From a virus: a stretch of 43,203 nt of DNA. How positions within the stretch are numbered: position 1 is the stretch's first letter; every line of letters begins with the position of its first letter. The notes under the pieces were generated by a model. It did no database searches. It was not told where the DNA came from and saw nothing but the letters and a program-made list of their open reading frames with translations. Location of the stretch: positions 1 through 43,203 of IMG/VR virus record IMGVR_UViG_3300027977_002333, one strand, 5' to 3'. A program made the position numbers and the translations under genes. Positions 2-42,753 of the stretch are shown in pieces.

Positions 2-385
2 AGTGTGATGAAAGTGTCAGACTTTGCACAAATTTTATACACCTATGTGAACAACAAAGTGTTGAAAGGTGAAAGTGATTTGGGCCGAGACTTTGTGAAA
101 TGGCTCACCATGACCAGTGCAGTGAGTCGCAACAAGCAGGGCAAGATAGTGGATTATGTCAAACAGGAAGTCAAAGGATTCAATGCCTTATGGAAGGTGT
201 TTGTGGGCATACAAATGGCCAAAGATGCAGTGATTCGTCAACTGGACAGTCAACAATCAGATGTCACTGCCAGCATGAACGATCAACCAGGTGGTGAAGG
301 CTATGTGGTGCAAACTGCCAAAGGTCCCATCAAGCTGGTCAACCGTGCAGGCTTCAGCAAACAGAATTTTCAACTAAATAGATAG
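2..385 (+). CDS. C-terminal part of a conserved T4-like phage protein (DUF6267-like), cut by window edge
   Basis: The reading frame is open to the first base of the window, so the true start probably lies upstream; a GTG at 5 and an ATG at 8 are possible but have no convincing ribosome binding site. The last 35 residues read GEGYVV, then GPIKLVNR and FS, which resembles the C-terminus of large conserved proteins of T4-like phages (DUF6267, from memory), where an EGxVV segment recalls nucleotidyltransferase/ligase folds. The family match is recalled, not searched. Its end contains the late promoter of the next gene. Function is unknown. Confidence 0.6.
   Translation, partial: SVMKVSDFAQILYTYVNNKVLKGESDLGRDFVKWLTMTSAVSRNKQGKIVDYVKQEVKGFNALWKVFVGIQMAKDAVIRQLDSQQSDVTASMNDQPGGEGYVVQTAKGPIKLVNRAGFSKQNFQLNR
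374..380 (+). promoter_or_regulatory. T4-type late promoter core (CTAAATA)
   Basis: CTAAATA lies 6 bp before the ATG at 387, inside the 3' end of the preceding gene. Transcription would begin at or next to the start codon. Confidence 0.6.
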
Positions 386-3377: not shown

Positions 3378-4502
3378 ATGAAATTCACACAGTTAAAAAG
3401 CACTCCCACAGCAGAAAACCTTAACGATAGGGTGGCTCAGATGTTTGGATCCAAAATTAAATTGGAATCATTCACAGTGGAACAGTTGACTGCGGCTCGT
3501 GACAAACTGGCCAATCAATTGCAGGTGATTGAAAATCAAGCCAACTTTGATGCCATACATTCCAGTGAAGCCTATCAAAAAAATAGATTGTTTTTAAAAG
3601 TGATCGAACAAAGAATTACAGAATTATCACAAACCACAGACGCAGATGCGGCTCAAGCACAGACTGATGTGGCACAACCATCAGTAACTACATCAACTCC
3701 AGTGGAACAAGAAGAGTCAGTGGAAGAGACTATGACTAAACAACATTTTCAATACGTGGCTGACACTATAAAAGATATCCAAGACCCAATTAAAAAAGCA
3801 GAATATGCCAAACATCATTCAGCCATATTCCAACATTTCAATCCTCGTTTTGATCATGCAAAATTTATGGCAGCAGCAGGAGTGGAAATGAAAGAACCAG
3901 CAGAAGCAGTGGCGGAAGCCAAACCAGATTTTTTAGACATGGACAAAGATGGCAACAAAAAAGAACCCATGAAAAAAGCCATCAAAGACAAAGAAAAGAA
4001 AAAAGATATTAAAGAAGCAGCAGAAGATACTGCCAAGATAGTGATGGCCGCCAACAGCATGGTGGACAAAATCACTGGTTGGTTGGAAGACACAGCCAAA
4101 ATGCAGACTGAAGTCAATCTTGATCTAGGCGATGAGATCCGAAACGAAATGGGTTCTGAAAAAGCAGAAGAATTCATTGCAGCCATGAAACCAGCAATTG
4201 AACAATTATACACTCAATTAGAAACTGTAAGAAAATCATTCACAGGCGGCGTAGCTGTCCTGACAGGCGAAGAAGCGCCGGCAACCTTGGGCGCGGATGC
4301 TCCAACAGATGACATAGAAGACCTTGAAACAGAAGTAGAACCCGAAGTTACCCCAGACACAGCAGATGACTTCACTGCCAGCGAACCAGCCACAGGTGGT
4401 GAAGAACCTGCAGACAGAAAGAAAAGAGAATCCATCATTAGAAGAAGTCCAAAATTAGCAGAAATGCTGTCCAGACCTTTCATCGGAAAAAAAAAGGTTT
4501 AA
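3378..4502 (+). CDS. Large acidic, helical late protein with EF-hand-like motif, ending at a slippery A9 run
   Basis: 374 residues. The start at 3378 follows AGGAA. It has a long helical N-terminus (about residues 20-85), an acidic Gln/Ala/Glu linker, and then near residue 190 a DMDKDGNKKE segment, which fits a DxDxDG calcium-loop pattern. A second helical domain and an acidic Pro/Thr/Glu-rich C-terminal part follow. Composition suggests a scaffold-like or internal virion protein. The last codons run through nine A residues (4487-4495) and stop at 4500-4502, while the -1 frame stays open for over 100 more codons. The product may therefore exist in short and extended forms. Family not recognised. 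Confidence 0.8.
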   Translation: MKFTQLKSTPTAENLNDRVAQMFGSKIKLESFTVEQLTAARDKLANQLQVIENQANFDAIHSSEAYQKNRLFLKVIEQRITELSQTTDADAAQAQTDVAQPSVTTSTPVEQEESVEETMTKQHFQYVADTIKDIQDPIKKAEYAKHHSAIFQHFNPRFDHAKFMAAAGVEMKEPAEAVAEAKPDFLDMDKDGNKKEPMKKAIKDKEKKKDIKEAAEDTAKIVMAANSMVDKITGWLEDTAKMQTEVNLDLGDEIRNEMGSEKAEEFIAAMKPAIEQLYTQLETVRKSFTGGVAVLTGEEAPATLGADAPTDDIEDLETEVEPEVTPDTADDFTASEPATGGEEPADRKKRESIIRRSPKLAEMLSRPFIGKKKV

Positions 4503-4825
4503 TCATCGAGGCTGATCACAGCCGCATCACCCAAGTATTAAGAAATTTAATTGGCACTGCCAACAGTCAGCAGCAACCTGCCTACATCAACTATGTGGCA
4601 TTGAATCGCATCATGCAAAACGTGCAAGGAGATCAATACAGTTTCGATGCTGTGAAGCAGGCCTACGACACAGATGCAGAATTCAAAAGCATAATCAAAA
4701 ACTTTGACCGTGAAGGCATCACACTCAAAACAGATGTGACCAAACCAGGTGCCACTCCCACAGCACCAAAAAAGAATTCAGTGGATCGCATGGCACAGCA
4801 GGCATTGAAAAAACGATCCAAATAA
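4493..4825 (+). CDS. Minus-one frame extension of the 3378-4502 gene (frameshift product or frame error)
   Basis: After a -1 slip on A_AAA_AAA (4487-4493, in the right phase), the frame reads on as KGLIIEADHSRITQVL and continues to the stop at 4825. It includes about 35 codons (4493-4594) that have no ATG or ribosome binding site upstream of the first possible start, the GTG at 4595. This upstream stretch has coding character, so a separate gene starting at 4595 would waste it. The C-terminal part ends in a basic QQALKKRSK tail. Either programmed frameshifting or a single-base assembly error in the homopolymer explains it. If not fused, a 76-residue protein from GTG 4595 remains possible. Confidence 0.65.
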   Translation, partial: KGLIIEADHSRITQVLRNLIGTANSQQQPAYINYVALNRIMQNVQGDQYSFDAVKQAYDTDAEFKSIIKNFDREGITLKTDVTKPGATPTAPKKNSVDRMAQQALKKRSK

Positions 4826-4830
4826 AAAGA

Positions 4831-4859
4831 TTGACAAACGCCCGCATAAATCGTATACT
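4831..4859 (+). promoter_or_regulatory. Sigma70-like early promoter for the Nfu gene
   Basis: TTGACA, 17 bp, TATACT, then 6 bp to the ATG at 4866. Near-perfect match to the host housekeeping consensus. Confidence 0.8.
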
Positions 4860-4865
4860 GATACA

Positions 4866-5243
4866 ATGACCCCAAGAACCAAATTGGACATCATGTCTGA
4901 CATTCACACAGTGATTGAAAAATATGTGTTGCCAGGAGTGGGCAGCCATGGGGGCGCTGTGCGTGTGATGGATTTTGATGAAGCCACTGGCACACTCACA
5001 CTGCAGATGGGTGGAGCATGTTCAGGCTGTGCCGGCAGCAAAATGACACTACAACATGGAGTGGAAAAAATTTTGTTTCATTATGTGCCTGAGGTCAAAA
5101 AAATTCAAGCAGAAGATGATGAACACAGCACAGTGGATCCTTACTTCAGTCATCCCATAGATTATCCCAGTGCCAATGAGATGTTGGATGAACTCAACCA
5201 TCTCAGCAAATTTGTGGGCACAGATCAAGACAAAAAAGAATAA
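4866..5243 (+). CDS. NifU C-terminal/Nfu-type iron-sulfur scaffold protein
   Basis: 125 residues. Residues 10-80 match the NifU C-terminal domain: helix, GVGSHGGAVRV strand, and the CSGC metal-binding pair (Cys52, Cys55) followed by SKMTLQHGVEKIL. Nfu proteins hold a bridging Fe-S cluster between two subunits and pass it to apo-enzymes. The C-terminal 45 residues are an acidic extension not typical of the core domain. The start is set by a sigma70-like promoter whose -10 ends 6 bp before the ATG, so the message should be leaderless. An A-type carrier gene occurs at 35845, so the phage encodes two Fe-S delivery proteins. Possible clients include host enzymes used during infection. Confidence 0.9.
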   Translation: MTPRTKLDIMSDIHTVIEKYVLPGVGSHGGAVRVMDFDEATGTLTLQMGGACSGCAGSKMTLQHGVEKILFHYVPEVKKIQAEDDEHSTVDPYFSHPIDYPSANEMLDELNHLSKFVGTDQDKKE

Positions 5244-5251
5244 AATATTCG

Positions 5252-5944
5252 ATGACACTACTCAAACCACGATATCATTACGAAAATTTAAAAAGAGTGT
5301 TGGTGGATGGTAAAAGATTATACAGTTGTCCCAATGGTGAATCATTGCCGTCAGTGACCACCATATTGGACAGTACCAAAGATAAATCACATCTGATAGA
5401 ATGGCGTCGCAAAGTGGGTGAAGAACAAGCCAACATTATCACCCGTGAAGCCAGTGGCATTGGAACTCGCATGCACAAATATTTGGAAGAATATATTGAA
5501 CGAGGCAGTTGGGGCACACCTGGTTCAAATCCATTTGCACAGCAGGCACATCAAATGGCTCAGACTGTGGGCAAGAATGCTTTGATTCATGTGGATGAAA
5601 TATGGGGTTCAGAAGTGAGTCTTTACTATCCTCAGATCTATGCTGGCACCACAGATTGTGTGGGCACTTACAAAGGCGCACCCTGCATCATAGATTTTAA
5701 ACAGAGCAACAAACCCAAGAAAAAAGAGTGGATCACTGATTATTTTTTACAGCTCACTGCCTATGCAGAAGCTCACAACAAAGTGTATGGCACTGAGATA
5801 CGAGAGGCTCATGTGTTCATGTGCAGTCGTGACATGACCTACCAGCAATTTGACATCACTGCTGTGGAATATTCCAAATATGCAGATCAGTGGTGGGATC
5901 GTGTGGAACAATACTTCAAAAAACAAGCAAACCACACCGCATAA
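5252..5944 (+). CDS. PD-(D/E)XK exonuclease (Cas4/MGME1-like superfamily)
   Basis: 230 residues. Visible superfamily motifs in order: GTRMH (His75) in an N-terminal helix, Glu121 in SEVSL, Asp135 in AGTTDCVG, the catalytic IIDFK pair (Asp148, Lys150), and QLTAYA (Gln167). These form the metal-binding core of single-strand-acting exonucleases related to Cas4, RecB-type and mitochondrial MGME1 nucleases. T4-like marine phages often carry such an enzyme, where it probably helps recombination, repair or host DNA breakdown. It starts 8 bp after the Nfu gene and is likely co-transcribed from the same early promoter. Confidence 0.85.
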   Translation: MTLLKPRYHYENLKRVLVDGKRLYSCPNGESLPSVTTILDSTKDKSHLIEWRRKVGEEQANIITREASGIGTRMHKYLEEYIERGSWGTPGSNPFAQQAHQMAQTVGKNALIHVDEIWGSEVSLYYPQIYAGTTDCVGTYKGAPCIIDFKQSNKPKKKEWITDYFLQLTAYAEAHNKVYGTEIREAHVFMCSRDMTYQQFDITAVEYSKYADQWWDRVEQYFKKQANHTA

Positions 5945-6001: not shown

Positions 6002-7615
6002 GTGGCAATTGTATCAATCAGTAGGATTCAAGTACGCAGAGGGCAAGCGGGTGCAGGTTCAGGCATACCTCAATTGGCGGGTGGAGAATTTGGATGGGCA
6101 GTGGATACCCAAGCATTGTACATTGGCAACGGGTCAGTGTCTGAAGGCGCTCCCACAGTGGGCAATACAAAAATTTTAACTGAACACGACAATCTTTTTG
6201 AACTCAGCAGCACCTACATCTATGGCGATGAAAACTTGGTGCAAACAGGAGCCTCAGTAGGTGCTCCAGTGCAAAGAACATTGAAAGACAGACTGGATGA
6301 CTCAGTGAGTGTGAGAGCATTTGGAGTGATTGGTGATGGACTCACCAATGAAACAGTGAAATTGCAAAGAGCCATTGATCAGTTGTTTGTGAATCCAGCC
6401 ACGGTGGGCAATGCCAGCAGCCGTAGACAATTACACATGCCAGCAGGCACTTACATCATCAGTGCCAGTTTAAAACTACCACCATTCACCACACTGATTG
6501 GTGCAGGCAGTGACAAAACCATCATTAATCAAACAGGCAACTTTCCTGTGTTTGAAACTGTGAACGGATTGAGAACTCCAGGAGTAGCTGGCAACAGAGC
6601 AGCCACCACCACATTGAATCAAGCACGTCACATTAGATTGCAAGGCATGACTTTAAATATCACAGGCGACAACACAGCCATGCTGGTGGACAATTGTGTG
6701 AACAGTGATTTTGAAGATATAAAAATGGATAGTGATTGGACCAATAGTGCTTCTTACACAAATAATTTTGCTATCAAAATAGAAGCCATCAGCAGCACAG
6801 TAACTTCAGCCAACAATAATTTTAAAAGCATTAAAATTAATCAGTTTCAACAATCTGTGCATTCAGACTATGATGTGTTGGAAAATCATTTTGAAAATTG
6901 TGTGTTTGAAAATTGTCAGTACGGCATAGTGTTTGGAGAATTAACCACCATAGGAGCCCCAGGACAGGCCACAGGACCCCTCAATAATACCGTGAGCAAA
7001 TCACAATTCAAAGACATCAATCGTCAAGGTATTTGGGTGCGAAAAGGCCGAGGCAACAAGAGCATCAGCAATTCTTTTGAAAGTGTGGGCAACGATGGTG
7101 GCACAGAATCCAATGCTGTGTACAGTGTGATCAAATTTGAAACCATAGAAAATGCTTCACACAATGATTTCTTTGACAGATCAAAAAAATTATCCACTGA
7201 ATCTGCTTTTGTGGCAGCACCATACAAACCAGAAATAGAAGGCCGTGTGGAGAATGCCACCACTTATGCATTGCTGGTAAATGTGGGTTACACAGTATCA
7301 TTCACCACTTCATTTAGATTGCCTGCTGACACCACCAAGAGCTACATTGTGTATTACCTTTACAAAAGTTCTTATGTGAATGCTGTGCGACACGGCACTT
7401 TGGAAATCACTGTGAATCGCAACAACAACACCACCAGTCTCACAGACACCTATGACTATGTGGGTGATCCTGCCTACAATACTTCTTTGGATTTTAATGT
7501 GACACTGAATGATCTTGATGCCGATACCAATGTGGACACTGTGATAATTCAAACCAGAGACAGCATATTGAATGATCAAGCCACCATACTTTTCCAAGTC
7601 AAGACACAATCATAA
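6002..7615 (+). CDS. Tail fibre/tailspike with pectate-lyase-like beta helix
   Basis: 537 residues starting at GTG 6002, chosen because TTTTAGGAGA precedes it. The N-terminus (MAIVSISRIQVRRGQ, then PQLAGGEFGWAVDT) is of a type seen on fibre proteins of marine T4-like phages and probably attaches to the virion. From about residue 95 the sequence AFGVIGDGLTNET, MPAGTYIISASLKLPP and TTLIGAGSDKT fits the start of a right-handed beta helix of the pectate-lyase superfamily, as in tailspikes that bind or cleave surface polysaccharide. The C-terminal third is Thr/Asn-rich beta sequence. Likely role: host surface recognition. The next gene overlaps its end by 44 bp. Confidence 0.85.
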   Translation: MAIVSISRIQVRRGQAGAGSGIPQLAGGEFGWAVDTQALYIGNGSVSEGAPTVGNTKILTEHDNLFELSSTYIYGDENLVQTGASVGAPVQRTLKDRLDDSVSVRAFGVIGDGLTNETVKLQRAIDQLFVNPATVGNASSRRQLHMPAGTYIISASLKLPPFTTLIGAGSDKTIINQTGNFPVFETVNGLRTPGVAGNRAATTTLNQARHIRLQGMTLNITGDNTAMLVDNCVNSDFEDIKMDSDWTNSASYTNNFAIKIEAISSTVTSANNNFKSIKINQFQQSVHSDYDVLENHFENCVFENCQYGIVFGELTTIGAPGQATGPLNNTVSKSQFKDINRQGIWVRKGRGNKSISNSFESVGNDGGTESNAVYSVIKFETIENASHNDFFDRSKKLSTESAFVAAPYKPEIEGRVENATTYALLVNVGYTVSFTTSFRLPADTTKSYIVYYLYKSSYVNAVRHGTLEITVNRNNNTTSLTDTYDYVGDPAYNTSLDFNVTLNDLDADTNVDTVIIQTRDSILNDQATILFQVKTQS

Positions 7616-8103: not shown

Positions 8104-10449
8104 ATGAATTCTTCTAAAATCAAAGTAAAAAAACGAACAGGCGAACTGGAACCACTTGACATCAATAAAATGCACTTTGTGGTGGAGGAGGCCTGCGAGG
8201 GTCTATCAGGAGTATCAGCATCACAGATAGAAATGAATGCCAACATTCAATTTTATGATGGTATCAGCACCAGAGACATACAAAGTGTGTTGGTCAAATC
8301 AGCCAACGACTTGATCACATTGGAAAATCCCAACTATCAATATGCCGCAGCAAGATTGTTGCTGTATGATCTACGCAAACAAGCACATGGCGATTATGAA
8401 TATCTACCATTGTTAAAACTGATCATTAGAAATATTAGATCCGGAGTGTATGACAAAACCATATTGGACAAATACAACAAGACTGAAATTAAAAAACTTA
8501 ATACGTGGATACGCCGAGACAGAGATTTGGATTTTACCTATGCAGGATTGAGACAGATTGTGGACAAATATCTGGTGCAGGATCGTTCATCAGGAGCATT
8601 GTATGAAACTCCACAGGACATGTACATGATGATTGCTGCCACATTGTTTATGAATTATCCTGAAAAGAAAAGAATGAGTTATGTGAAAAGATACTATGAT
8701 GCTATCTCCACACACAAAATTAACATTCCTACTCCAGTGATGGCAGGTGTGAGAACTCCCATACGTCAATTCGCCAGCTGTGTGTTGGTGGACTCAGATG
8801 ACACACTCACTTCCATATTCAGCAGTGACATGGCCATTGGACTGTATGTGGCACGTCGAGCAGGCATCGGCATCAATGCTGGCCGTATCAGAGGCATCAA
8901 CAGCAAGATCAGAGGCGGTGAAGTACAGCACACAGGAGTGATTCCGTTCCTTAAGAAATTCGAAAGCACAGTGAGATGCTGCACACAGAACGGTGTGAGA
9001 GGTGGCAATGCCACTGTACACTTCCCCATATGGCACTCCGAGATTGAAGACATCTTGGTATTGAAAAACAACAAAGGCACCGAAGACAATCGTGTGCGAA
9101 GAATGGATTATTCTATACAGATATCCAAATTGTTCTATGAAAGATTCATCAATGACGAAGAAATAACTCTGTTCTCGCCACATGAAGTGCCTGGACTCTA
9201 TGACGCATTTGGCACAGACACATTTGACGATCTGTATCTAAAATATGAAGCAGACAAAAAAATTCCTAAAAAAACCACTGGAGCACAGGAGTTGTTCTTT
9301 GATCTATTGAAAGAACGAGCAGAAACAGGCAGAATCTACATCATGAATATTGATCATGTGAACAGTCATTCATCATTCAAAGACAGAGTCAGCATGAGTA
9401 ATTTGTGTCAAGAAATCACACTGCCCACCACTCCCATACAGCACATAGATGATGTGAATGGTGAAATAGCACTGTGCATACTGAGTGCCATCAATGTGGG
9501 CATAATCAATGATTTGGATGAATTGGAACCTTTGTGTGATCTGGCAGTGAGAGCATTGGAAGAGATCATAGACTATCAACAGTATCCGGTCAAAGCTGCC
9601 GAAGTCAGCACCAAAGCTAGACGTTCTTTGGGCATAGGTTATATTGGATTGGCACACTATCTGGCTCGCATGGAAGTCAAATATCATCACAAAGCTGCTT
9701 GGGAAGCCGTGGACAAGCTCACAGAAGCATTTCAATTCTATCTGCTCAAAGCCAGCTGTCAATTGGCACAGGAGCGAGGTGCTTGTGAAAAATTTAATAG
9801 AACCAAATACGCAGATGGACTGTTGCCCATAGACACTTACAAGAAAGAAGTGGACGAAATTGTGCCACACAAAACAAGAATGGCCTGGGAGCAATTGAGA
9901 AAAGACATCAAACAGTATGGACTGAGACACAGCACACTGTCAGCACAGATGCCATCAGAGAGCAGTTCAGTGGTCAGCAATGCCACCAACGGTATTGAAC
10001 CACCCCGAGCACTGTTGAGCATTAAGAAAAGTAAAAAAGGACCACTCAAACAGGTTATACCAGGTTTTCCCAAACTGAAAAATTCATACACACTGCTGTG
10101 GGACATGCCCAGCAATGATGGATATATCAAAATTGTGGCCATGATGCAGAAATATTTTGACCAAGCCATATCAGGCAACTGGAGTTACAATCCACTCAAC
10201 TATGCCAACAATGAAGTGCCACTGAGTGTGATGGCTGGTGACATGTTGAATGCCTACAAATATGGTTGGAAAACTTCCTATTATCAAAATACCTACGACT
10301 TCAAAGGTGATGAAGAAGATCTACAACCATCTGGCATTGAGCCCATTGATACCAAAGATGGATCAGAAGAGTTGACATTGCCTGGATCTGATGCTAAAAT
10401 CAGCACAGCATCTATAGACACAACTGACTGTGATGCCTGCGCAATATAA
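8104..10449 (+). CDS. nrdA: Ribonucleoside-diphosphate reductase, large (alpha) subunit, class Ia
   Basis: 781 residues, full length for the family. It reduces ribonucleotides to deoxyribonucleotides for phage DNA synthesis together with NrdB. An N-terminal ATP-cone-like region (residues 5-90) may give overall allosteric control. The catalytic set is visible: Cys226 (FASCVLVD), Asn433, Cys435 and Glu437 (NLCQE), Cys458 (ALCILS), and the C-terminal redox pair Cys776/Cys779 (CDAC), which is re-reduced by glutaredoxin. It is followed 14 bp later by nrdB and then by a glutaredoxin gene. It has a TAAATA element upstream rather than a sigma70-like one, so its timing may be middle or late. Confidence 0.97.
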   Translation: MNSSKIKVKKRTGELEPLDINKMHFVVEEACEGLSGVSASQIEMNANIQFYDGISTRDIQSVLVKSANDLITLENPNYQYAAARLLLYDLRKQAHGDYEYLPLLKLIIRNIRSGVYDKTILDKYNKTEIKKLNTWIRRDRDLDFTYAGLRQIVDKYLVQDRSSGALYETPQDMYMMIAATLFMNYPEKKRMSYVKRYYDAISTHKINIPTPVMAGVRTPIRQFASCVLVDSDDTLTSIFSSDMAIGLYVARRAGIGINAGRIRGINSKIRGGEVQHTGVIPFLKKFESTVRCCTQNGVRGGNATVHFPIWHSEIEDILVLKNNKGTEDNRVRRMDYSIQISKLFYERFINDEEITLFSPHEVPGLYDAFGTDTFDDLYLKYEADKKIPKKTTGAQELFFDLLKERAETGRIYIMNIDHVNSHSSFKDRVSMSNLCQEITLPTTPIQHIDDVNGEIALCILSAINVGIINDLDELEPLCDLAVRALEEIIDYQQYPVKAAEVSTKARRSLGIGYIGLAHYLARMEVKYHHKAAWEAVDKLTEAFQFYLLKASCQLAQERGACEKFNRTKYADGLLPIDTYKKEVDEIVPHKTRMAWEQLRKDIKQYGLRHSTLSAQMPSESSSVVSNATNGIEPPRALLSIKKSKKGPLKQVIPGFPKLKNSYTLLWDMPSNDGYIKIVAMMQKYFDQAISGNWSYNPLNYANNEVPLSVMAGDMLNAYKYGWKTSYYQNTYDFKGDEEDLQPSGIEPIDTKDGSEELTLPGSDAKISTASIDTTDCDACAI

Positions 10450-15118: not shown

Positions 15119-15463
15119 ATGAGTTTTATTGTGATGGGTTTGGGCAAAAGAATCAAAAAAAAATTAGCAAGAACTAAACGACTGGCCAAAGCGAGAGAAC
15201 AGCATCGCAAGTGGTTGAAAAGTCAAGGCTTGGACAATATCAAAAAAGACAAGAACTTTGGTTATGACATTCCGGATTACACTCCCAAAAGAAAAATGCC
15301 TCGCACATCGGACAAGATTGTCAAGGTGTCTGGTCGTGCGGAACAACAGCACTATTCAGGTGAAAGAAAATTGATCGGCATCGGTATGCTACACAAGAGC
15401 AACCTCGTGCCGGTGTTTGACCAGCAGGACGCCATAGACATCTCCAAGATGCGTAGAAATTAA
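15119..15463 (+). CDS. Basic hypothetical early protein
   Basis: 114 residues; the first 60 are strongly basic (KRIKKKLARTKRLAKAREQHRKW), suggesting nucleic acid or ribosome contact. No recognised domain. The ATG at 15119 lies exactly 6 bp after TATAAT and is predicted leaderless; an in-frame ATG at 15134 is the alternative. It converges with and overlaps by 4 bp the minus-strand gene at 15460. Early timing and basic character suggest a takeover protein, by inference. Confidence 0.75.
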   Translation: MSFIVMGLGKRIKKKLARTKRLAKAREQHRKWLKSQGLDNIKKDKNFGYDIPDYTPKRKMPRTSDKIVKVSGRAEQQHYSGERKLIGIGMLHKSNLVPVFDQQDAIDISKMRRN

Positions 15464-18109: not shown

Positions 18110-19654
18110 ATGTTATTGGGCATAGTCACATTATTGACAGCATTTGCATTGAGTTCAGCCGCAATTTATTTTTCGGTGATAGGACTTGTGGCCATATTTT
18201 CAGGTGCCGCAGTGCCCATCATATTCATGGGAGTCACTCTGGAGATTGCCAAACTGGTCACTGCCAGTTGGCTGTATAGAAATTGGCACCTAGCAGCTAG
18301 ATATATGAAATACTACATGAGTATTGCCATATTCATACTGATGGTGATCACCAGCATGGGAGTGTTTGGATTCCTATCCAAATCGCATCTACAACAGGGA
18401 GCCACATCCAGCAATAACACACAACAAATTCAAATCATCAACAGTCAAATCAAAGCTGAACAGGATGTGATTGAGCGTCAGCAAGACATTATCCGACGTA
18501 ATTCAGGAGCGGGTGGTGGAGCAGGTGAACGCATAGCCCAACTGCGAGAAAGAATCAAACAATTAGACCGAGAAGTGGAAGCCTACACTTCACAAGGAGC
18601 CACCAGCACCATATTCAATGACAAAGTGGCCAAAGGCATAGAACTTAAAAAACAACAGCAGTCTGAACGCGACGGCATTGACAGAGAGATCAAACAGTTG
18701 ACCACTGCCAATCAAGGCAACAACTCTGCAGCAGAAGCACAGATTGCTCGCAGTCAACAACGCATACAGCAATTGATCAATCAGCGAGCTCCGCTACAAA
18801 CCACACAGATCACATTGGATGCTGAAATTGGTCCTATCAAATACATTGGGGAATTGTTTGTGGACCTAGGCATGGTGGACAAAGTCAATACTGATATGGC
18901 AGTGCGTTGGATCATTGTGTTGATTATTATTGTGTTTGATCCATTGGCAGTGTTGTTATTGATTGCAGGACAACAAAGTATAAGACAAGCCAGAGGCAAC
19001 ACAGGCGGTGGCAGCAATTCTCCCACAGCACCCATAATAGATCCCACTCCAATATTGAAAAAAATCAGCGAAAAATTTAAGGAATTTCCTTTCAAAAAAA
19101 AAGACTCTGATGTGAATAAACTGAGCACATTAGTGCCAGTCAAAACCAACACAGATTCCATGACCACAGGATTAAGACTGAGTGCTTTGATGCCCGCCAA
19201 ACCAGCACCAATGCCTATAGAAACTCCTGCTGTGCCTCTCACGCAAACTGAAGTTATAGACACTGAAGATGGTGACACATTGGAAATTGTAACTGAAGCA
19301 CACAAGACTAGACTGCAATATTTTAATGCTCAAAAAGACAAAGCCAAAGAATGGAAAGGACTTCAAACCAATCCAAGAAACACCATCAAAAGATTGAGAT
19401 TCAATTATGTGGCAGGTTTTATCGATAAATTGCCTTGGGAGACTGAAGAAACAGTCACACCGCCCATGCCCATAGATCAATGGAATCAAATGTTGGAACA
19501 AGCAGAAAAAGCATTGGAACAAGACACAGAAAAAAAAACCAAAAGTTATATCATCAAAGAAGATCAGCAACAAGTGAGAAAAACGGTAGAAGAAGAATAC
19601 ATTCAAAACGAAGAACAGTCAGATCAATCAATCTGGAATCGCATCAAAAAATAA
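18110..19654 (+). CDS. Large membrane protein with periplasmic or cytoplasmic coiled coil
   Basis: 514 residues. Three membrane helices near residues 5-30, 33-55 and 68-90, then a long coiled coil (about 100-235, with IINSQIKAEQDVIERQQDII and similar), a fourth hydrophobic segment (about 265-288), and a soluble Pro/Thr/Glu-rich C-terminal half. Proteins with this N-terminal layout are, as I recall, conserved without known function in marine T4-like phages. The membrane plus coiled-coil plan recalls proteins that act at the cell envelope during infection. Its translation may be limited by the hairpin just before the start. Confidence 0.8.
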   Translation: MLLGIVTLLTAFALSSAAIYFSVIGLVAIFSGAAVPIIFMGVTLEIAKLVTASWLYRNWHLAARYMKYYMSIAIFILMVITSMGVFGFLSKSHLQQGATSSNNTQQIQIINSQIKAEQDVIERQQDIIRRNSGAGGGAGERIAQLRERIKQLDREVEAYTSQGATSTIFNDKVAKGIELKKQQQSERDGIDREIKQLTTANQGNNSAAEAQIARSQQRIQQLINQRAPLQTTQITLDAEIGPIKYIGELFVDLGMVDKVNTDMAVRWIIVLIIIVFDPLAVLLLIAGQQSIRQARGNTGGGSNSPTAPIIDPTPILKKISEKFKEFPFKKKDSDVNKLSTLVPVKTNTDSMTTGLRLSALMPAKPAPMPIETPAVPLTQTEVIDTEDGDTLEIVTEAHKTRLQYFNAQKDKAKEWKGLQTNPRNTIKRLRFNYVAGFIDKLPWETEETVTPPMPIDQWNQMLEQAEKALEQDTEKKTKSYIIKEDQQQVRKTVEEEYIQNEEQSDQSIWNRIKK

Positions 19655-23847: not shown

Positions 23848-24309
23848 ATGAAAAAATCCAGTGCATTTGCTCATGTCAATAGGATCAAACGTGCCTGTGA
23901 ACGTCACAGTCATATAAAGAATTTTTATCCCACACTGAATCAAACCAAATATTGGTTTGGAATCCTCAACAAAGAAATTTTTGATTCCAAATTGAAAAGA
24001 CCACGCATCACTGTGAGTCAAAAGAAACAAGTGATGGGACAATGTGTGGCCCACTGGGACAGCAGGATTGCAGGACGCAGAGGCGAATGGGATCAAAAAA
24101 AAATACCCTATCACAATCCCACCATGCATTATCTAATAGAAATGCATCACAAGTTTAACACTTGGAGAGATTATATCGAAACACTGGCTCACGAAATGGT
24201 ACACTTGTATCAAATGACCGTGACCAAAGATCCCACAGCCAATCACAATGACAGCTTCTATGCTTGGAAGAATCGTTTCAAAAAGTTTGGATTAAATCTA
24301 AGTAGATAA
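23848..24309 (+). CDS. SprT-like zinc metallopeptidase
   Basis: 153 residues. The motif HEMVHLYQ (His115, Glu116, His119) and the later NHNDSFYAWKNRFKKFGL match the SprT-like domain, in which a third His (in NHNDSF) completes the zinc site. A basic N-terminal half may contact DNA. Cellular SPRTN/SprT-like enzymes cleave DNA-protein crosslinks. It is the second metallopeptidase in tandem. Confidence 0.82.
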   Translation: MKKSSAFAHVNRIKRACERHSHIKNFYPTLNQTKYWFGILNKEIFDSKLKRPRITVSQKKQVMGQCVAHWDSRIAGRRGEWDQKKIPYHNPTMHYLIEMHHKFNTWRDYIETLAHEMVHLYQMTVTKDPTANHNDSFYAWKNRFKKFGLNLSR

Positions 24310-36195: not shown

Positions 36196-39100
36196 ATGGC
36201 ATATCAAAATATCAATATTGGAGTGGAAGGCAATGACGGCACAGGTGATAGCATACGTGATGCGTTTAGGAAAGCCAATGAAAACTTCACAGAACTGTAT
36301 GCAGTATTTGGAGCCGGCGGTCAGATAGCATTCACATCGCTCAGTGACACACCTGATGTGTTAGGCATAAGAAACATTCCCATTAGCAACACCACAGGCA
36401 CAGCATTTGAAATGCGTGAGATCACTGGCGGCACAGGAATCTCAGTCAGTTATGCCACACCAGGTGACATTATTATTTCCAACACAGGCAGTGAATTGGT
36501 GGATGATCTTTCACCCACACTGGGAGGACCGTTGAATGCTAATGGATTGCCCATTGGTAATGCAGCAGTCAGCACCCAAGCTGCAATAGATTTCAACAAC
36601 ACTCACGGCACTGCCATAACCATAGACAATTTGGTAATCACCAAAGGATACGCAGATCAAAGATATATCAAACTGGGTGGAGGAGCGTCAGGCGCAGCAG
36701 GTCAGATCAGAGTGAGAAGTGAGCCTGTGGATGCCACAGCCTACACCAAGACCATAGCCAGTTACACAGCAGGCAATGCAGTGGTCACCGCTCACGGTTA
36801 TGACAGCAGTGTGAATGGTTTAGAAGTGATCTACAACACCACTGGCTCAGCAGCTTCAGGATTGGTGAATGGCAGCACATATTACATCAGATATGTGAAT
36901 GATAACCAATTGAGTTTTCACAGCAGTTTTGCTCAAGCCACCAACAACGATGACATCACCAGAATAAAAATCACTGTGGCAGGCGGCACAGGTGTTCAGT
37001 CATTCACAGATGCTGCTTATGATGACACATTGGCAGGATTCTTCCTCAGCGATGAGGCCATGCCAAGAGAATCCATTGTGAGACGTCAAGGAGACACCAT
37101 GACAGGTGCTCTTTATCTCAATGATCATCCAGGAGATTTGTCAGGATTAGGTGCACCCAATGGTGCAGATGATTTGCAAGCTGCCACCAAATTCTATGTG
37201 GACAACACCAGCTACGCTTCCGACACCAATCTATTCGTCAGCACCAAAGGTGATGATAGAATGGATGGAGTACCACCAGACAAGGTAGGCAGATCATTCA
37301 GTTACGCATACAAAACAATCAATGCTGCTTGTGTGAAAGCAGAAGAGATCATGCTGGCCACTCCGGTGGAGCTGGGACCTTACACTCAAACCATCACTTA
37401 TGATGATGGAGCCAGTAATTCCATAGTGGTCACAGAAGGTGTCACCAGCGGCAGCGGTTACAACAATGTGAAATTGTTGATAGACGCCAACAGAACATTC
37501 ATTATCAAACAGATGATAGGTTTTGTGAATGCTACCTATCCCAACTTTACCTATGATGAATTGATTTGTGAAAGAGATTTAGGATATATTTTAGATGGTA
37601 TTGTGATCGATGTGTTGGCAAATCTCAACTCCAATGTGAGAAGTATTCAAGCAGGTATCAGATACTACAGCAATGTGAGTGGTGCCAAGGCCATCAATCA
37701 GCAACTGACTGAAACATTGGCAGGCATCAACTATGCCAAATCAATCACCAACACTGTGCTGCAAAACTTGGCTGTGTCACCCATCTACAACGCTGGCTTC
37801 ACTCAAACATTTGATATGCCCAGCACTGTGAACAACACAGGTAGATCATCAGTGGGAGCAAAATTTGACATCATCACCAACATCATTCAAAACGGTATCA
37901 GCAGTGCTCCGCCAGAAGTGGAAGGCAGCACATACACCATGACCATCAGCAACGGTGGATTTGGCAATGTGGATCAGAACGATCCCAACAATCAAGATTT
38001 GATTCCAGGCAAATTGATCCGAGGCAAGACCACTGGTGCCATAGGTAGAATTGTTTCTGTCGCAGCAGGCGGCGCAGCAGACACAGTGCAAGTGATATTG
38101 ATTGAACCATTGGAGTTTTTGGTGGGTGAAGGTTTGGAATTTTCTTCGCAATTCAAACGCAACAACATCACCATACGAGTGGAGAGCGGTACCTATCTGG
38201 AAGATTTCCCCATCAGAGTGCCAGATGGAATCAGCATCAAAGGTGATGAATTTAGACGAGTGATCATACGACCCAAGAATAGAATTTCACAGTCTCAGTT
38301 TGCCAACACATATTTCTACAGAGATCTAGTGATAGATGGTCTCACAGTGACCACCACCAACTTTGGCAGACATTATCTAGTGAATCCCACTGCATTGGTC
38401 AACACTGGTGCCAGTTATGTGAACGTGGGTGGTTATGACACTCAGGCCTTGACCATATTAAATGCCAAACCCGCCATACAAAATGCTGTGGTGAATTATG
38501 TGAATTCATTGTTGAGTCCCAGCTCGTTGAATGCTGCCAATGAAGCAAGGAATCGCAGAGAGACTGGTACAATTGTGGACGCCATATTTTCAGATTTAAA
38601 AACTGGTGGCAATGAAAAAATATTGGAAGTTCAAGGCAATTTTTATAACTCAGGACTGATTGCTCAAGAACAAGCAGGCATCAGCTACATTGCTACCTAT
38701 ATCAATGCCTCCGTGATTGCATCTGCTTCTGCAACCATTAAAAATATTGTCACTGCACAGATGGCTCGTGTGGTGTATGCATTCAACGGCTCATACAATC
38801 CTCCCAAACACAACAGAAACATGGATGTGTTCCTCATGGGCGAGGCCACCATCATAAGAAATGTATCTGTGCAAGGTCATGGTGGATTCATGTGTGTGTT
38901 GGATCCTGCTTCACAAGTACTTAACAAGTCACCCTACATTCAAACAGCTTCCAGTTTTTCTGCCAGCATCAACACTCAGGCATTCCGAGGTGGTATGTTT
39001 GTGGATGGATCTTCAGGCAACATACCCATCAACATCACTTCAGTGGTGAACCCATTTGAATTGGAAGTGGACAGCAATGCTGGTCAAGGATTATTCATAA

Positions 39101-42100
39101 GAAAACCACTCACTCCCACTGCGTTCTACATTGATGGTACGAGATACCAAGTGGATGCAGTCAAAGATTATGACGGACCAGCAGGCACAGCCACTTTGTT
39201 ATTGAATGCCAGCAGCAATGCAGGTCTGGGTTTTGTGATCACTTCACCCATACCTTACAGCACCACACTGCAGACAGCAGGCAATAGATCCATGTTGGCC
39301 AATGACTTCACACAGGTGAATGATTTGGGTTATGGTCTATTGGTCACCAATGGTGCATTGTCTGAACAGGTCAGCACATTCACTTACTACTGTCACGCTG
39401 CCTACATGTCATTGAATGGTGGACAGATCAGAGCATTGAACGGCAGCAATGCCAATGGTGTGTATGGTTTGGTGGCTCAAGGTTCAGATCCTTTGGAAGT
39501 GCCAGATGATGTGGATCTAGTACGCAACATGGCACAAGTGGCCAAAGTGTATGATGATGGTGGTGTATATGATCACCCATTGCTGGCATTGAGCATTTAT
39601 GTGTACGATTTGGAATACATACCTCACAACAGATCTGAAATTGAAATTGATCATGATCCTCTGGATTCTTCTCTCACTCTGGGAGTGCAAAGATATGAAG
39701 TGGCCAGCGTGGAACTGATATCACCACCCATCACAGTGACAGGTCCTTCTGTCACACGAGATGGCACAGTTTACAAATTAAATCTCAGCACTGCCGGCAC
39801 TGACAATGCTTCCACCACAGGACTCAAAGCAGTGTTGGCCAATCAACAGAATGTGACCATCAGAGCCAGTCAATCGCATCAATTCAGCAATGTGGGCAAT
39901 GTGTCTCCCACACGTCCCAGCACAGCATTGGTATTCTATGATGACACCACTGATATAGTTTATAGAACCATAGCATTCAATATCACCAATGCAGTGGGCA
40001 CAGCACTGCCAGCCAACAACGTGATTGCTTCTTTTGACACCACATTTGACTTTGTGAGATTGCAAATCAGACCTGCATCAGCTGTGTTGAGCACTTATGC
40101 TGGTGCTGGAACAACCATGGGAGCCACAGCAGGTGACGTGGTGTTGGCCATTGAACCGATCACTGAAGCTTTGGACATCACTAGATTGAACACAGGCAAC
40201 ATGAGCTTTGGTTGGGCAGGCAAAACACACAGAGTCACCAGTTATGTGGACCGAGGCACTTATGCCACTGTGAGCATTGTTCAACTCAGCAATATTAATA
40301 TTTCAGGACCAGCAGCAGGTATTCAAGAACCTTTGGTGCGTGGACCCGGCACAGAAAACATTGTGTTGCGTTGCGGACTGTTGGCCAATGCCAATGCTGA
40401 CATCACCATTAAAATTTCCACTTGTAGAGCCACAGGTCACGATTTCTTAGACATCGGCACTGGTGGATTCAACACCAGCAATTACCCCAATAATATTTTT
40501 GGTGATCCCACAGCATTGCCTGTGCAAGACAATGAAGTGGATGAACGAGGCAAAGGACGTGTGTTCTTTGTGAGCACAGATCAAGACGGTGTATTCAGAG
40601 TGGGTAGATTCTTCACAGTGGATCAAGGCACTGGCACTGTGACATTCTCAGCCAGCATTGCACTCAGCAACTTGGATGGATTAGGATTCAAACGAGGTGT
40701 GGTGGCAGCAGAATTTTCAACAGACTCGGCCATGACAGACAATGCTTCCGACACCATACCCACAGAATCAGCTGTGCGCGGTTATGTGGATAGAAGATTA
40801 CATTACACACAAGGCAGTTCATTGGTGGGCAATCCTATTGGACCTGGTGCCATAGCCAGAGATGGAACCACCAGTTTCACTGCCAACATCAGCGCAGGTG
40901 GATTCAAATTGATCACACTGGGTGCTCCTAGCACCGCATTGGATGCTGCCAACAAAGCCTATGTGGACAATACTTTGTATGCCAGCGATCAAGTGGAGAA
41001 TTTAAGAAACGTGGACATCGCAGGATTTGCAGCCAATCAGATATTGGTGTTCAACGGCAGACAAAGAATATTCACCACACCAGAAACAGGCGGATTGTTT
41101 GTGGTGGGCAACACCATCACAGGCAGCAGCACTGGCACAGTGGCCACCATAGTGGATTATGAATCAGTGGTATTGCCAGGTTCATTGAATGCAAGACGCA
41201 TAACTTTTGCAGCAGTGTCAGGTCCTGGCTTCAGCACATTGGATTCAGTCAGCACAGGAGGCGGAGTGGCTGCACAAGTGATAGATGGACCCATGAACGA
41301 ATTGGCCAATGGAGTTATGTCAGGCAGCACAGACATCTCAATCACTGCCACAAGAAGCACTGCACAAACAGATTTAAACTTGCAAATAGTGGCCGGCAGC
41401 ATCATCAACGCAGATGTGAACGCAGCCGCTGCCATACAGCAGAGCAAGTTGGCCATGCAGGCTGCCACCACCAGAGCCAATGCCACAGGCATCAGTCAGG
41501 CAGATCTTGGATTGGCCAGCTTTGACTCGGGAGATTTCACAATTACCAACGGTTGGGTCTCATTGGCCACAGCTGGAGTGGATCTGGCAGATTTGCCCAA
41601 TCTCACACAGTATCAGACTTTTGGTAAGAACACAGTAGGTTCAGGTGCTCCCACCATCGTCAGCTATGCAGATGTGGTCAGCAATGGACTGGGATTGGAA
41701 GACGGAGATTTTGTAACAATTTTATCAGCTGCATCAGATCCAGGTGAAGCTTTGATCAAAACTGGCACAGGCACCTACGGTATCACCAATGTGAGCACCA
41801 CAGGAGAAGTCAACAGCATTGTGAAGTCAGATGCCACAGGTATCGTGGATGTGGCACAGTTGAAAGTGGATGGATTCAAATTGATCGACAGCAACACTGG
41901 TACCAATACCTCCATATTCACTACCAGAGGCAATGTGGACTTCCTCACAGCACAAGGCAGCACTGTGGCAAGCACCACATTGGTATTCACAGGAAGAAAA
42001 TTTGAATTTGGTGGCAGCACAGTGAGCAATTCACCCACTGCAGACACACTGCAATCAGTGCTGGCCAGTGAAGGCCGAGGCATTGCCACTCCTCACTTGT

Positions 42101-42753
42101 TTACAAAATTTATTGAAAGCGATGTGGTTGAATCAGGCGGCACAGGTATTGCATTCGGTACTGGTGGAGGCACATTTGCAGGCGCAGGCAAGATCAGCAT
42201 TGTGTTGGCAGGAGATGTGCCATTCATATTCGCTGGGGACGCAGATGATTCCACCAGCGTGACTCCAGGTATGTATCCCGATACCGACAATGCTTACACC
42301 ATTGGTAATGCTTCAGCCAGATATGCCACCATATTTGCCACCACATTCCACGGCACAGCCACCAATGCATTGTACGCTGACTTGGCAGAGAAATATTTGG
42401 CAGACCAGGAATATGATTCAGGCACTGTGTTGCAGTTTGGTGGTTCGAAAGAAGTGACCATTACAACTGAAGCCAACACCAACAAGATAGCAGGTGTGGT
42501 GACCACAGCACCAGCATTTTTGATGAATGATGCATTGAATGAATTCAACACAGTGGCAGTGGCACTGCAGGGTCGTGTGCCATGCAAAGTGATAGGAAAA
42601 ATTTCCAAAGGTGACATGCTGGTGGCCAGTGCCACAGCAGGTGTGGCTTGTGCAGCTCAAGGTGAAATTAGAATGGGCACAGTGATTGGTAAATCGCTGG
42701 AGCATTATGATTCAGATCAAGTGGGCGTGATTGAAATCGCGATAGGTAGATAA
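36196..42753 (+). CDS. Giant tail fibre protein
   Basis: 2185 residues. The N-terminus (MAYQNINIGVEGNDGTGDSI, then RDAFRKANENFTELY) is shared with the next fibre gene and probably docks to the virion. Fibre-type segments include two YVDNT(S/L)YASD repeats (near residues 335 and 1590). The middle is long beta sequence rich in Gly, Thr, Ser and Asn. The C-terminal part, DNAYTIGNASARYATIFA and DLAEKYLADQEYDSGTVLQF, is like the end domains of marine T4-like fibres and may bind the receptor or drive trimer assembly. It is late, co-transcribed with the Fe-S carrier. Confidence 0.9.
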   Translation: MAYQNINIGVEGNDGTGDSIRDAFRKANENFTELYAVFGAGGQIAFTSLSDTPDVLGIRNIPISNTTGTAFEMREITGGTGISVSYATPGDIIISNTGSELVDDLSPTLGGPLNANGLPIGNAAVSTQAAIDFNNTHGTAITIDNLVITKGYADQRYIKLGGGASGAAGQIRVRSEPVDATAYTKTIASYTAGNAVVTAHGYDSSVNGLEVIYNTTGSAASGLVNGSTYYIRYVNDNQLSFHSSFAQATNNDDITRIKITVAGGTGVQSFTDAAYDDTLAGFFLSDEAMPRESIVRRQGDTMTGALYLNDHPGDLSGLGAPNGADDLQAATKFYVDNTSYASDTNLFVSTKGDDRMDGVPPDKVGRSFSYAYKTINAACVKAEEIMLATPVELGPYTQTITYDDGASNSIVVTEGVTSGSGYNNVKLLIDANRTFIIKQMIGFVNATYPNFTYDELICERDLGYILDGIVIDVLANLNSNVRSIQAGIRYYSNVSGAKAINQQLTETLAGINYAKSITNTVLQNLAVSPIYNAGFTQTFDMPSTVNNTGRSSVGAKFDIITNIIQNGISSAPPEVEGSTYTMTISNGGFGNVDQNDPNNQDLIPGKLIRGKTTGAIGRIVSVAAGGAADTVQVILIEPLEFLVGEGLEFSSQFKRNNITIRVESGTYLEDFPIRVPDGISIKGDEFRRVIIRPKNRISQSQFANTYFYRDLVIDGLTVTTTNFGRHYLVNPTALVNTGASYVNVGGYDTQALTILNAKPAIQNAVVNYVNSLLSPSSLNAANEARNRRETGTIVDAIFSDLKTGGNEKILEVQGNFYNSGLIAQEQAGISYIATYINASVIASASATIKNIVTAQMARVVYAFNGSYNPPKHNRNMDVFLMGEATIIRNVSVQGHGGFMCVLDPASQVLNKSPYIQTASSFSASINTQAFRGGMFVDGSSGNIPINITSVVNPFELEVDSNAGQGLFIRKPLTPTAFYIDGTRYQVDAVKDYDGPAGTATLLLNASSNAGLGFVITSPIPYSTTLQTAGNRSMLANDFTQVNDLGYGLLVTNGALSEQVSTFTYYCHAAYMSLNGGQIRALNGSNANGVYGLVAQGSDPLEVPDDVDLVRNMAQVAKVYDDGGVYDHPLLALSIYVYDLEYIPHNRSEIEIDHDPLDSSLTLGVQRYEVASVELISPPITVTGPSVTRDGTVYKLNLSTAGTDNASTTGLKAVLANQQNVTIRASQSHQFSNVGNVSPTRPSTALVFYDDTTDIVYRTIAFNITNAVGTALPANNVIASFDTTFDFVRLQIRPASAVLSTYAGAGTTMGATAGDVVLAIEPITEALDITRLNTGNMSFGWAGKTHRVTSYVDRGTYATVSIVQLSNINISGPAAGIQEPLVRGPGTENIVLRCGLLANANADITIKISTCRATGHDFLDIGTGGFNTSNYPNNIFGDPTALPVQDNEVDERGKGRVFFVSTDQDGVFRVGRFFTVDQGTGTVTFSASIALSNLDGLGFKRGVVAAEFSTDSAMTDNASDTIPTESAVRGYVDRRLHYTQGSSLVGNPIGPGAIARDGTTSFTANISAGGFKLITLGAPSTALDAANKAYVDNTLYASDQVENLRNVDIAGFAANQILVFNGRQRIFTTPETGGLFVVGNTITGSSTGTVATIVDYESVVLPGSLNARRITFAAVSGPGFSTLDSVSTGGGVAAQVIDGPMNELANGVMSGSTDISITATRSTAQTDLNLQIVAGSIINADVNAAAAIQQSKLAMQAATTRANATGISQADLGLASFDSGDFTITNGWVSLATAGVDLADLPNLTQYQTFGKNTVGSGAPTIVSYADVVSNGLGLEDGDFVTILSAASDPGEALIKTGTGTYGITNVSTTGEVNSIVKSDATGIVDVAQLKVDGFKLIDSNTGTNTSIFTTRGNVDFLTAQGSTVASTTLVFTGRKFEFGGSTVSNSPTADTLQSVLASEGRGIATPHLFTKFIESDVVESGGTGIAFGTGGGTFAGAGKISIVLAGDVPFIFAGDADDSTSVTPGMYPDTDNAYTIGNASARYATIFATTFHGTATNALYADLAEKYLADQEYDSGTVLQFGGSKEVTITTEANTNKIAGVVTTAPAFLMNDALNEFNTVAVALQGRVPCKVIGKISKGDMLVASATAGVACAAQGEIRMGTVIGKSLEHYDSDQVGVIEIAIGR

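Follow-up and report, generated by a model that had tools for sequence, protein, structure and literature searches.

In gene 10A/10B of phage T7, in T3 and in the head protein of Lactobacillus phage A2, a −1 shift close to the zero-frame stop produces a minor virion form with an extension at its C-terminus (PMC5009743), and in T7 gene 10, as in lambda G/GT, the short and the extended form stand in a fixed ratio. A conserved −1 slip into a startless frame is also found at lambda gpG/gpGT and other tail assembly chaperones, where A-rich heptamers are common, and nine-base homopolymers with a product partly in another frame are known from Thermus dnaX and from Shigella spa13 and mxiE (PMC5009743). 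Bacterial RNA polymerase slips efficiently in vivo on runs of nine A's or T's, and a 5′ stem-loop can help (PMC5009743). Here we describe a gene in the IMG/VR virus record IMGVR_UViG_3300027977_002333, all 43,203 bases of which make up our window: its first part, N, ends at a run of nine A's (A9) and is continued in the −1 frame by a second domain, C. We put at about 0.9 the probability that programmed −1 slippage at A9 yields two products from this gene, of 374 and 482 residues.

The N gene (3378–4502, plus strand) encodes a zero-frame product of 374 residues, probably a virion-associated protein of T4-like phages, and its 3′ end reads ATC GGA AAA AAA AAG GTT TAA, with the codon GGA at 4485, the A9 slip site at 4487–4495, G4496 completing the slip codon AAG (4494–4496), and the TAA stop one codon further on, at 4500–4502. 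Two in-phase heptamers are present, A_AAA_AAA (4487–4493) and A_AAA_AAG (4490–4496), and a slippery heptamer of the X_XXY_YYZ form, in phase and 5′ of the zero-frame stop, is kept in all slip-type relatives. On the same strand the open −1 frame extends from 4442 through the stop ending at 4825, and the C domain (4493–4825) adds 109 residues (GLIIEADH...KKRSK) after ...IGKKK, which, with the 373 residues up to that point, would make up the 482-residue product. The first 34 codons after the slip (4493–4594) contain no ATG, GTG or TTG, the earliest being a GTG at 4595. The first-pass annotation of this DNA had placed the passage of N through GGA-AAA-AAA-AAG to its stop exactly to the base, as a check of the open reading frames showed; the −1 frame with its 34 startless codons was likewise reproduced, and the extension it had put at about 110 residues comes to 109 when computed. 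An A9 run taken alone proves nothing, because such runs are not rare in this AT-rich window (five observed, 2.1 expected); the proof comes from relatives, which conserve where it lies, how long it is and in which frame. The other plus-strand runs lie at 15155–15163, 19094–19102, 19530–19538 and 24095–24103.

At 13 IMG/VR loci with a C domain 58–100% identical to that of the window, all but one contig with ten A's (A10) have C in −1 to N across an A9 junction. An N-protein profile was then used to fetch relatives from IMG/VR whatever their junction, and these were pooled with earlier scans; the 148 loci with both domains were reduced to 83 non-redundant ones by removing C domains more than 90% identical. 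A run of eight to ten A's lies within 40 nucleotides of the N stop at 57 of these 83 junctions, and C is in −1 in every one of the 57. The run is A9 in 54, A10 in two (L036 and L286, where TAA follows directly) and A8 in one (L301); it is followed by G in 54 and stands in the ribosome-friendly phase in 54, with L285 and L304 keeping A9 in another phase (TCG AAA AAA AAA). At a further locus, L296, only six A's are present (GGA AAA AAG, that is, A_AAA_AAG) and C is still in −1. The zero-frame stop comes directly after the slip codon in 20 junctions, one codon later in 28 and three to seven codons later in nine, so that 48 of the 57 have it within 0–1 codon of the slip. Eight of the 57 have a Shine-Dalgarno-like element 5′ of the slip. 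Three loci that had seemed to be short A6/A7 slip sites (L245, L253, L259) each have A9G a few codons upstream and are not contrary to A9, and L267, with six A's, has its own ATG behind a Shine-Dalgarno-like AGGA and was left out of the counts. The N gene of the close relative L008 (2283–3950) has 556 codons, about 180 more than that of the window.

The length of the run is itself conserved in a way that the heptamer does not demand. What turns A8 into A9 is the last base of the codon before it, a free third position, and this codon is TCA in 43, GGA in nine and CCA in two junctions (54 of 57), as against 39% TCA among serine codons and 16% GGA among glycine codons in the rest of these genes. 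The commonest site was searched for in viral contigs in three variants, which gives samples and not totals: TCA-A9-GTAA (TCAAAAAAAAAGTAA) returned at least 58 family members among the 120 matches listed, all 58 with C in −1, and no family member was present among the 120 matches listed for the A8 version TCBAAAAAAAAGTAA (TCB-A8-GTAA) or among the 120 listed for the A10 version TCA-A10-GTAA (TCAAAAAAAAAAGTAA), in which the frames are fused. Since A8 keeps A_AAA_AAG and A10 fuses the frames, selection maintains the ninth A as well as the break between the frames.

What lies beyond the slip is a protein domain in its own right. C homologues share 20–95% identity, with residues conserved across 71 sequences, and substitutions fall mainly on the third codon position of the −1 frame (9/4/22 by position against L006, 10/3/17 against L009), a pattern by which this frame encodes a conserved domain under purifying selection. 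Its predicted order of elements is H-E-H-H-E-E (helix-strand-helix-helix-hairpin, as in a winged helix), at moderate confidence (mean predicted local distance difference test score, pLDDT, 72.6), and its top structure matches in the PDB are winged-helix domains, all of them weak (MCM8 WH, E 0.15; best Z 6.0). In the slip-type set the earliest ATG, GTG or TTG of the C frame is typically 30–40 codons in, at a place that is not conserved. Distant relatives, with N about 28–41% identical, have no A-run; in them C is a gene of its own, with an ATG that either overlaps the N stop or directly adjoins it, the overlaps being TGATG, ATGA or TAATG in L020, L028, L029, L032, L034, L040 and others. These separate C proteins start MRLFEV or MKLFEL, and the slip-type genes have KKKV or KKGL for M(K/R)LFE. 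Because the A-run of slip-type genes sits where the C start codons of the distant relatives are, the frameshift, on this comparison, stands in for an independent start, altering the ratio of C to N and linking the two covalently.

The RNA around the run also shows signs of structure. When the 57 sequences were folded against shuffles, mean z for the 40–60 nucleotides directly 3′ of the run lay between −1.2 and −1.35 (p about 1e-5), and control windows at −160..−45 and +110..+270 gave z between −0.31 and 0.08. In the clade whose slip leads into VDPLV, a 13-pair hairpin has standard pairs in 79% of cells, as against 28–45% for slid partners, and with compensatory changes (covariation 0.132 vs 0.099 shuffled, 1 of 500). 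In the window, the stem-loop GGCTG-ATCA-CAGCC (4510–4523, plus strand), 13 nucleotides past the slip site, is a possible 3′ stimulator; it pairs in 97% of cells across seven relatives, one pair varying between G-C, G-U and A-U. Hairpins ending 1–2 nucleotides 5′ of the run are present in seven loci (L250, L262, L279, L297, L308, L311, L313). A search of Rfam over 4300–5000 gave no match.

Taken together, comparison of sequences establishes the site, its frame, selection on its length and selection on the −1 product. Coding selection acts on the second frame, which is −1 and startless, and the site is conserved across relatives, as in ribosomal −1 frameshifting; the homopolymer is of about nine bases and its length is under selection, L301 and L296 being exceptions, as in transcriptional slippage. 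We propose that standard decoding would give the 374-residue protein, ending just past A9, and that some decoding would slip −1 on GGA AAA AAA AAG and run on for 109 codons to give the 482-residue protein, with A9 setting the short:long ratio. We infer that the long product is made as a minor form and enters the virion: both forms would become part of the virion or of its assembly core, and the long form, in the minority, would contribute the small winged-helix-like domain, which relatives that do not frameshift would make as a separate small protein from the ATG at the first stop.

A number of observations weigh against this reading. One close relative, contig IMGVR_UViG_3300032220_001558 (L013/L081/L103), has A10 followed by GG and a single continuous frame, and in-frame A10 variants therefore do occur among the contigs, if rarely. 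In a small number of members the C frame contains a start codon at the slip or immediately 3′ of it (for example L168, with TAATG over the stop, L141, L154, L107, L280 and L314), and at start-bearing members such as L168 coupled reinitiation could take place. The 3′ structure signal is not unique, the +70..110 window having z −0.63 and windows that end at the run from the 5′ side z −0.66 to −0.80, and the stem-loop of the window is short (5 base pairs) and 13 nucleotides off the slip, with covariation that, resting on few changes, is not significant alone. The long product and its efficiency, lastly, are what we infer from sequence. The A10 of L013/L081/L103 may be a real fused variant or a homopolymer error.

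The first-pass annotation had left the choice between a programmed frameshift with two products and a sequencing or assembly indel in one fused gene. Homopolymers are error-prone and the A10 contig is in frame, as an indel would have it; the same A9 and −1 layout, however, recurs in independently assembled contigs from many metagenomes, at 20–95% identity in C and down to 28–30% protein identity, and an error would not have picked A9 58 times and A10 not once in matched samples of 120. Comparison with relatives thus rules out an assembly error, to which we would give next to no credence, and the recurrence of the same A9, −1 relation and conserved C in dozens of contigs bears out the frameshift. 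To its question whether homologues are fused or keep the slip site, the answer is that 54 of 57 junctions keep A9, the fused state being that of the A10 contig. The idea that C is a gene in decay after the loss of its start codon draws on the relatives in which C has its own ATG; it is equally close to negligible and is ruled out by conservation, given the purifying selection on the −1 frame and the residues conserved across the 71 sequences. Translation of C from a start of its own, by coupled reinitiation or from a non-standard start codon past the N stop, is the arrangement of the distant relatives and could suit the few slip-type members with a start nearby, but the slip-type set has no conserved start, the window has none for 34 codons and one further in would cut the conserved domain, and the exact A9 would be left without a reason; we consider it improbable.

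There is another known route to the same protein, absent from that annotation, namely slippage of RNA polymerase on A9, which would add one A to the transcript and let the edited mRNA be read normally. Compatible as this is with two products from one gene, we hold polymerase slippage alone as a tentative explanation only. Run length is what stays (A9 in 54 and A10 in two of 57), no A8 member is seen among the 120 matches listed although A8 retains an in-phase A_AAA_AAG, L285 and L304 have A9 in another phase, L036 and L286 have A10 and a stop, and directly on the 5′ side of the run there is a structure signal that is significant, if weak, with hairpins almost touching it in the seven loci named above. 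Against it, the stronger structure is 3′ of the run, where it could not act before being transcribed, and covaries in one clade; L301 with its A8 and L296 with its six A's retain C in −1; and the ribosome-friendly phase and the following G each occur in 54 of the 57 junctions, although shared ancestry might account for the two. The ribosome is favoured by the tandem in-phase heptamers A_AAA_AAA_AAG, by the G that follows and by structure on the 3′ side, and on these sequence features we would name it as the main slipping machine with not quite an even chance; a share for both machines seems unlikely. It is also possible, though we would not wager on it, that programmed polymerase slippage, alone or atop ribosomal slippage, accounts for the nine-A length and is the conserved means by which many distantly related, uncultured T4-like phages set the ratio of the two forms of one virion protein, replacing the overlapping start of the relatives.

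For the central part of N (3999–4457) there is a profile match (E 1.3e-10) to phrog_14154, a family annotated 'virion structural protein, head and packaging', and this match was found in all ten records tested, the window's included; it is a modest one, as a whole-protein scan of the window N does not list phrog_14154 at E 0.1. A gp23-type capsid gene was above the cut-off in three of those ten records, from T4-like viruses of up to 364 kilobases, and in the 364-kilobase and a 141-kilobase relative gp23 is placed elsewhere in the genome. Family searches of N matched no capsid family, Pfam gave no match for N or C, and a sequence search of the PDB gave no credible match for either. Among INPHARED phages, tblastn with the window N and C found no match, nor did two distant C proteins and the N of L105; a permissive search with the N of L129 matched cultured jumbo phages at E 0.05–1, matches which are backed by gene order. 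No cultured relative carrying the slip site was found in INPHARED. Downstream of C, on the plus strand, the window encodes a NifU-like domain protein (4866–5243; PF01106, E 8.5e-20), a PD-(D/E)XK exonuclease (5252–5944; phrog_298, E 2.5e-56) and, at the end of the conserved order, the ribonucleotide reductase large subunit (8104–10449; PF02867, E 9.2e-134), and in the jumbo phages Munch, XaC1 and Hallingskeid N is followed by C, the exonuclease, two further genes and then ribonucleotide reductase. The counterparts of N and C are annotated as virion structural protein in Hallingskeid and as hypothetical in Munch and XaC1, and gp044 of Atu_ph07, a long N homologue, is annotated as virion structural protein (phrog_14154). 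It belongs to the Atu_ph07 cluster of coding sequences (CDS) 31–76, of which 29 proteins were seen in virions by mass spectrometry, gp044 being unnamed in the main text (PMC6102473). Because of the phrog_14154 matches, the co-occurrence of gp23, the annotation of the counterparts and the Atu_ph07 cluster, N is a probable virion-associated protein, supported through its relatives.

The motif M[KRQN]xx[ED][LFIV] begins 48 of 250 open reading frames (19.2%) in 18 family loci and 7 of 525 (1.3%) in control contigs; it is carried by most N proteins and by separate C proteins (MRLFEV, MKLFEL) and is missing from slip-type C. Loci with it include L115, L137, L168 and L129, and in the window it is found at 8–385, 2053–2361 and 2358–2738. 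Internal proteins of T4 are packaged via a 10-residue N-terminal targeting sequence (PMC9026906), which the motif recalls, and by this analogy it may mark head-packed proteins. If it is indeed a targeting signal, the frameshift would let C travel on the signal of N. The window also has a pectate-lyase-like tail spike (6002–7615), weakly similar to the N-terminal domain of Mtd, and a 2185-residue tail fibre protein (36196–42753).

The site TCAAAAAAAAAGTAA is not confined to this family. It also ends five short phage genes (L124:47–618, L151:7451–8040, L179:633–1186, L196:1819–2411 and L118:647–1221), where the −1 frame is open for a further 66–101 codons; they match phrog_709 (three loci), the tail protein phrog_2115 and phrog_5802, and are likely to be tail assembly chaperone frameshifts. 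In three big phage contigs, genes of 611–758 codons end in TCA-A9-GTAA (L170:92–2331, L214:8048–10560, L223:368–2445) with −1 extensions of 83–86 codons, those of L170 and L214 being alike; these may represent second families of phage proteins made by frameshifting. The 15-mer could serve as a marker for such genes in metagenomes. The A9 junction of N and C would add a widespread recoding site to T4-like phages, in genes whose second half gene callers miss or mis-split, and the natural panel of A9, A8, A10, six-A and separate-gene relatives makes both the slipping machine and the replacement of the start codon testable.

A tail assembly chaperone of the lambda gpG/gpGT type was rejected for N, whose neighbours are the NifU-like protein, the exonuclease, the tail spike and ribonucleotide reductase and not a tape measure, and which matches no chaperone family. 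Judging by the title of Vladimirov et al. 2022 (cited in PMC10885494), chaperones of T4-like phages reportedly rely on a mechanism other than frameshifting. T7, T3 and A2 extend major capsid proteins, whereas N, in its family matches, shows no resemblance to one and no sequence relation was found; the slip in T7 gene 10, moreover, takes place at a G_GU-type site with a distant 3′ element where this gene has A9. Thermus dnaX and Shigella spa13 and mxiE are cellular genes, and here stem-loops are found 3′ as well as 5′ of the run. Atu_ph07 gp044 and the counterparts in Munch, XaC1 and Hallingskeid share the N-domain match and the order N, small C, exonuclease, ribonucleotide reductase, although Munch, XaC1 and Hallingskeid have a separate C gene with its own ATG, and the similarity of the C profiles is weak (hhalign probability 23%). 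In open-licence full text we found no earlier report of a frameshift in this gene family, whose gene resembles known kinds of recoding, those of T7 10A/10B and lambda G/GT.
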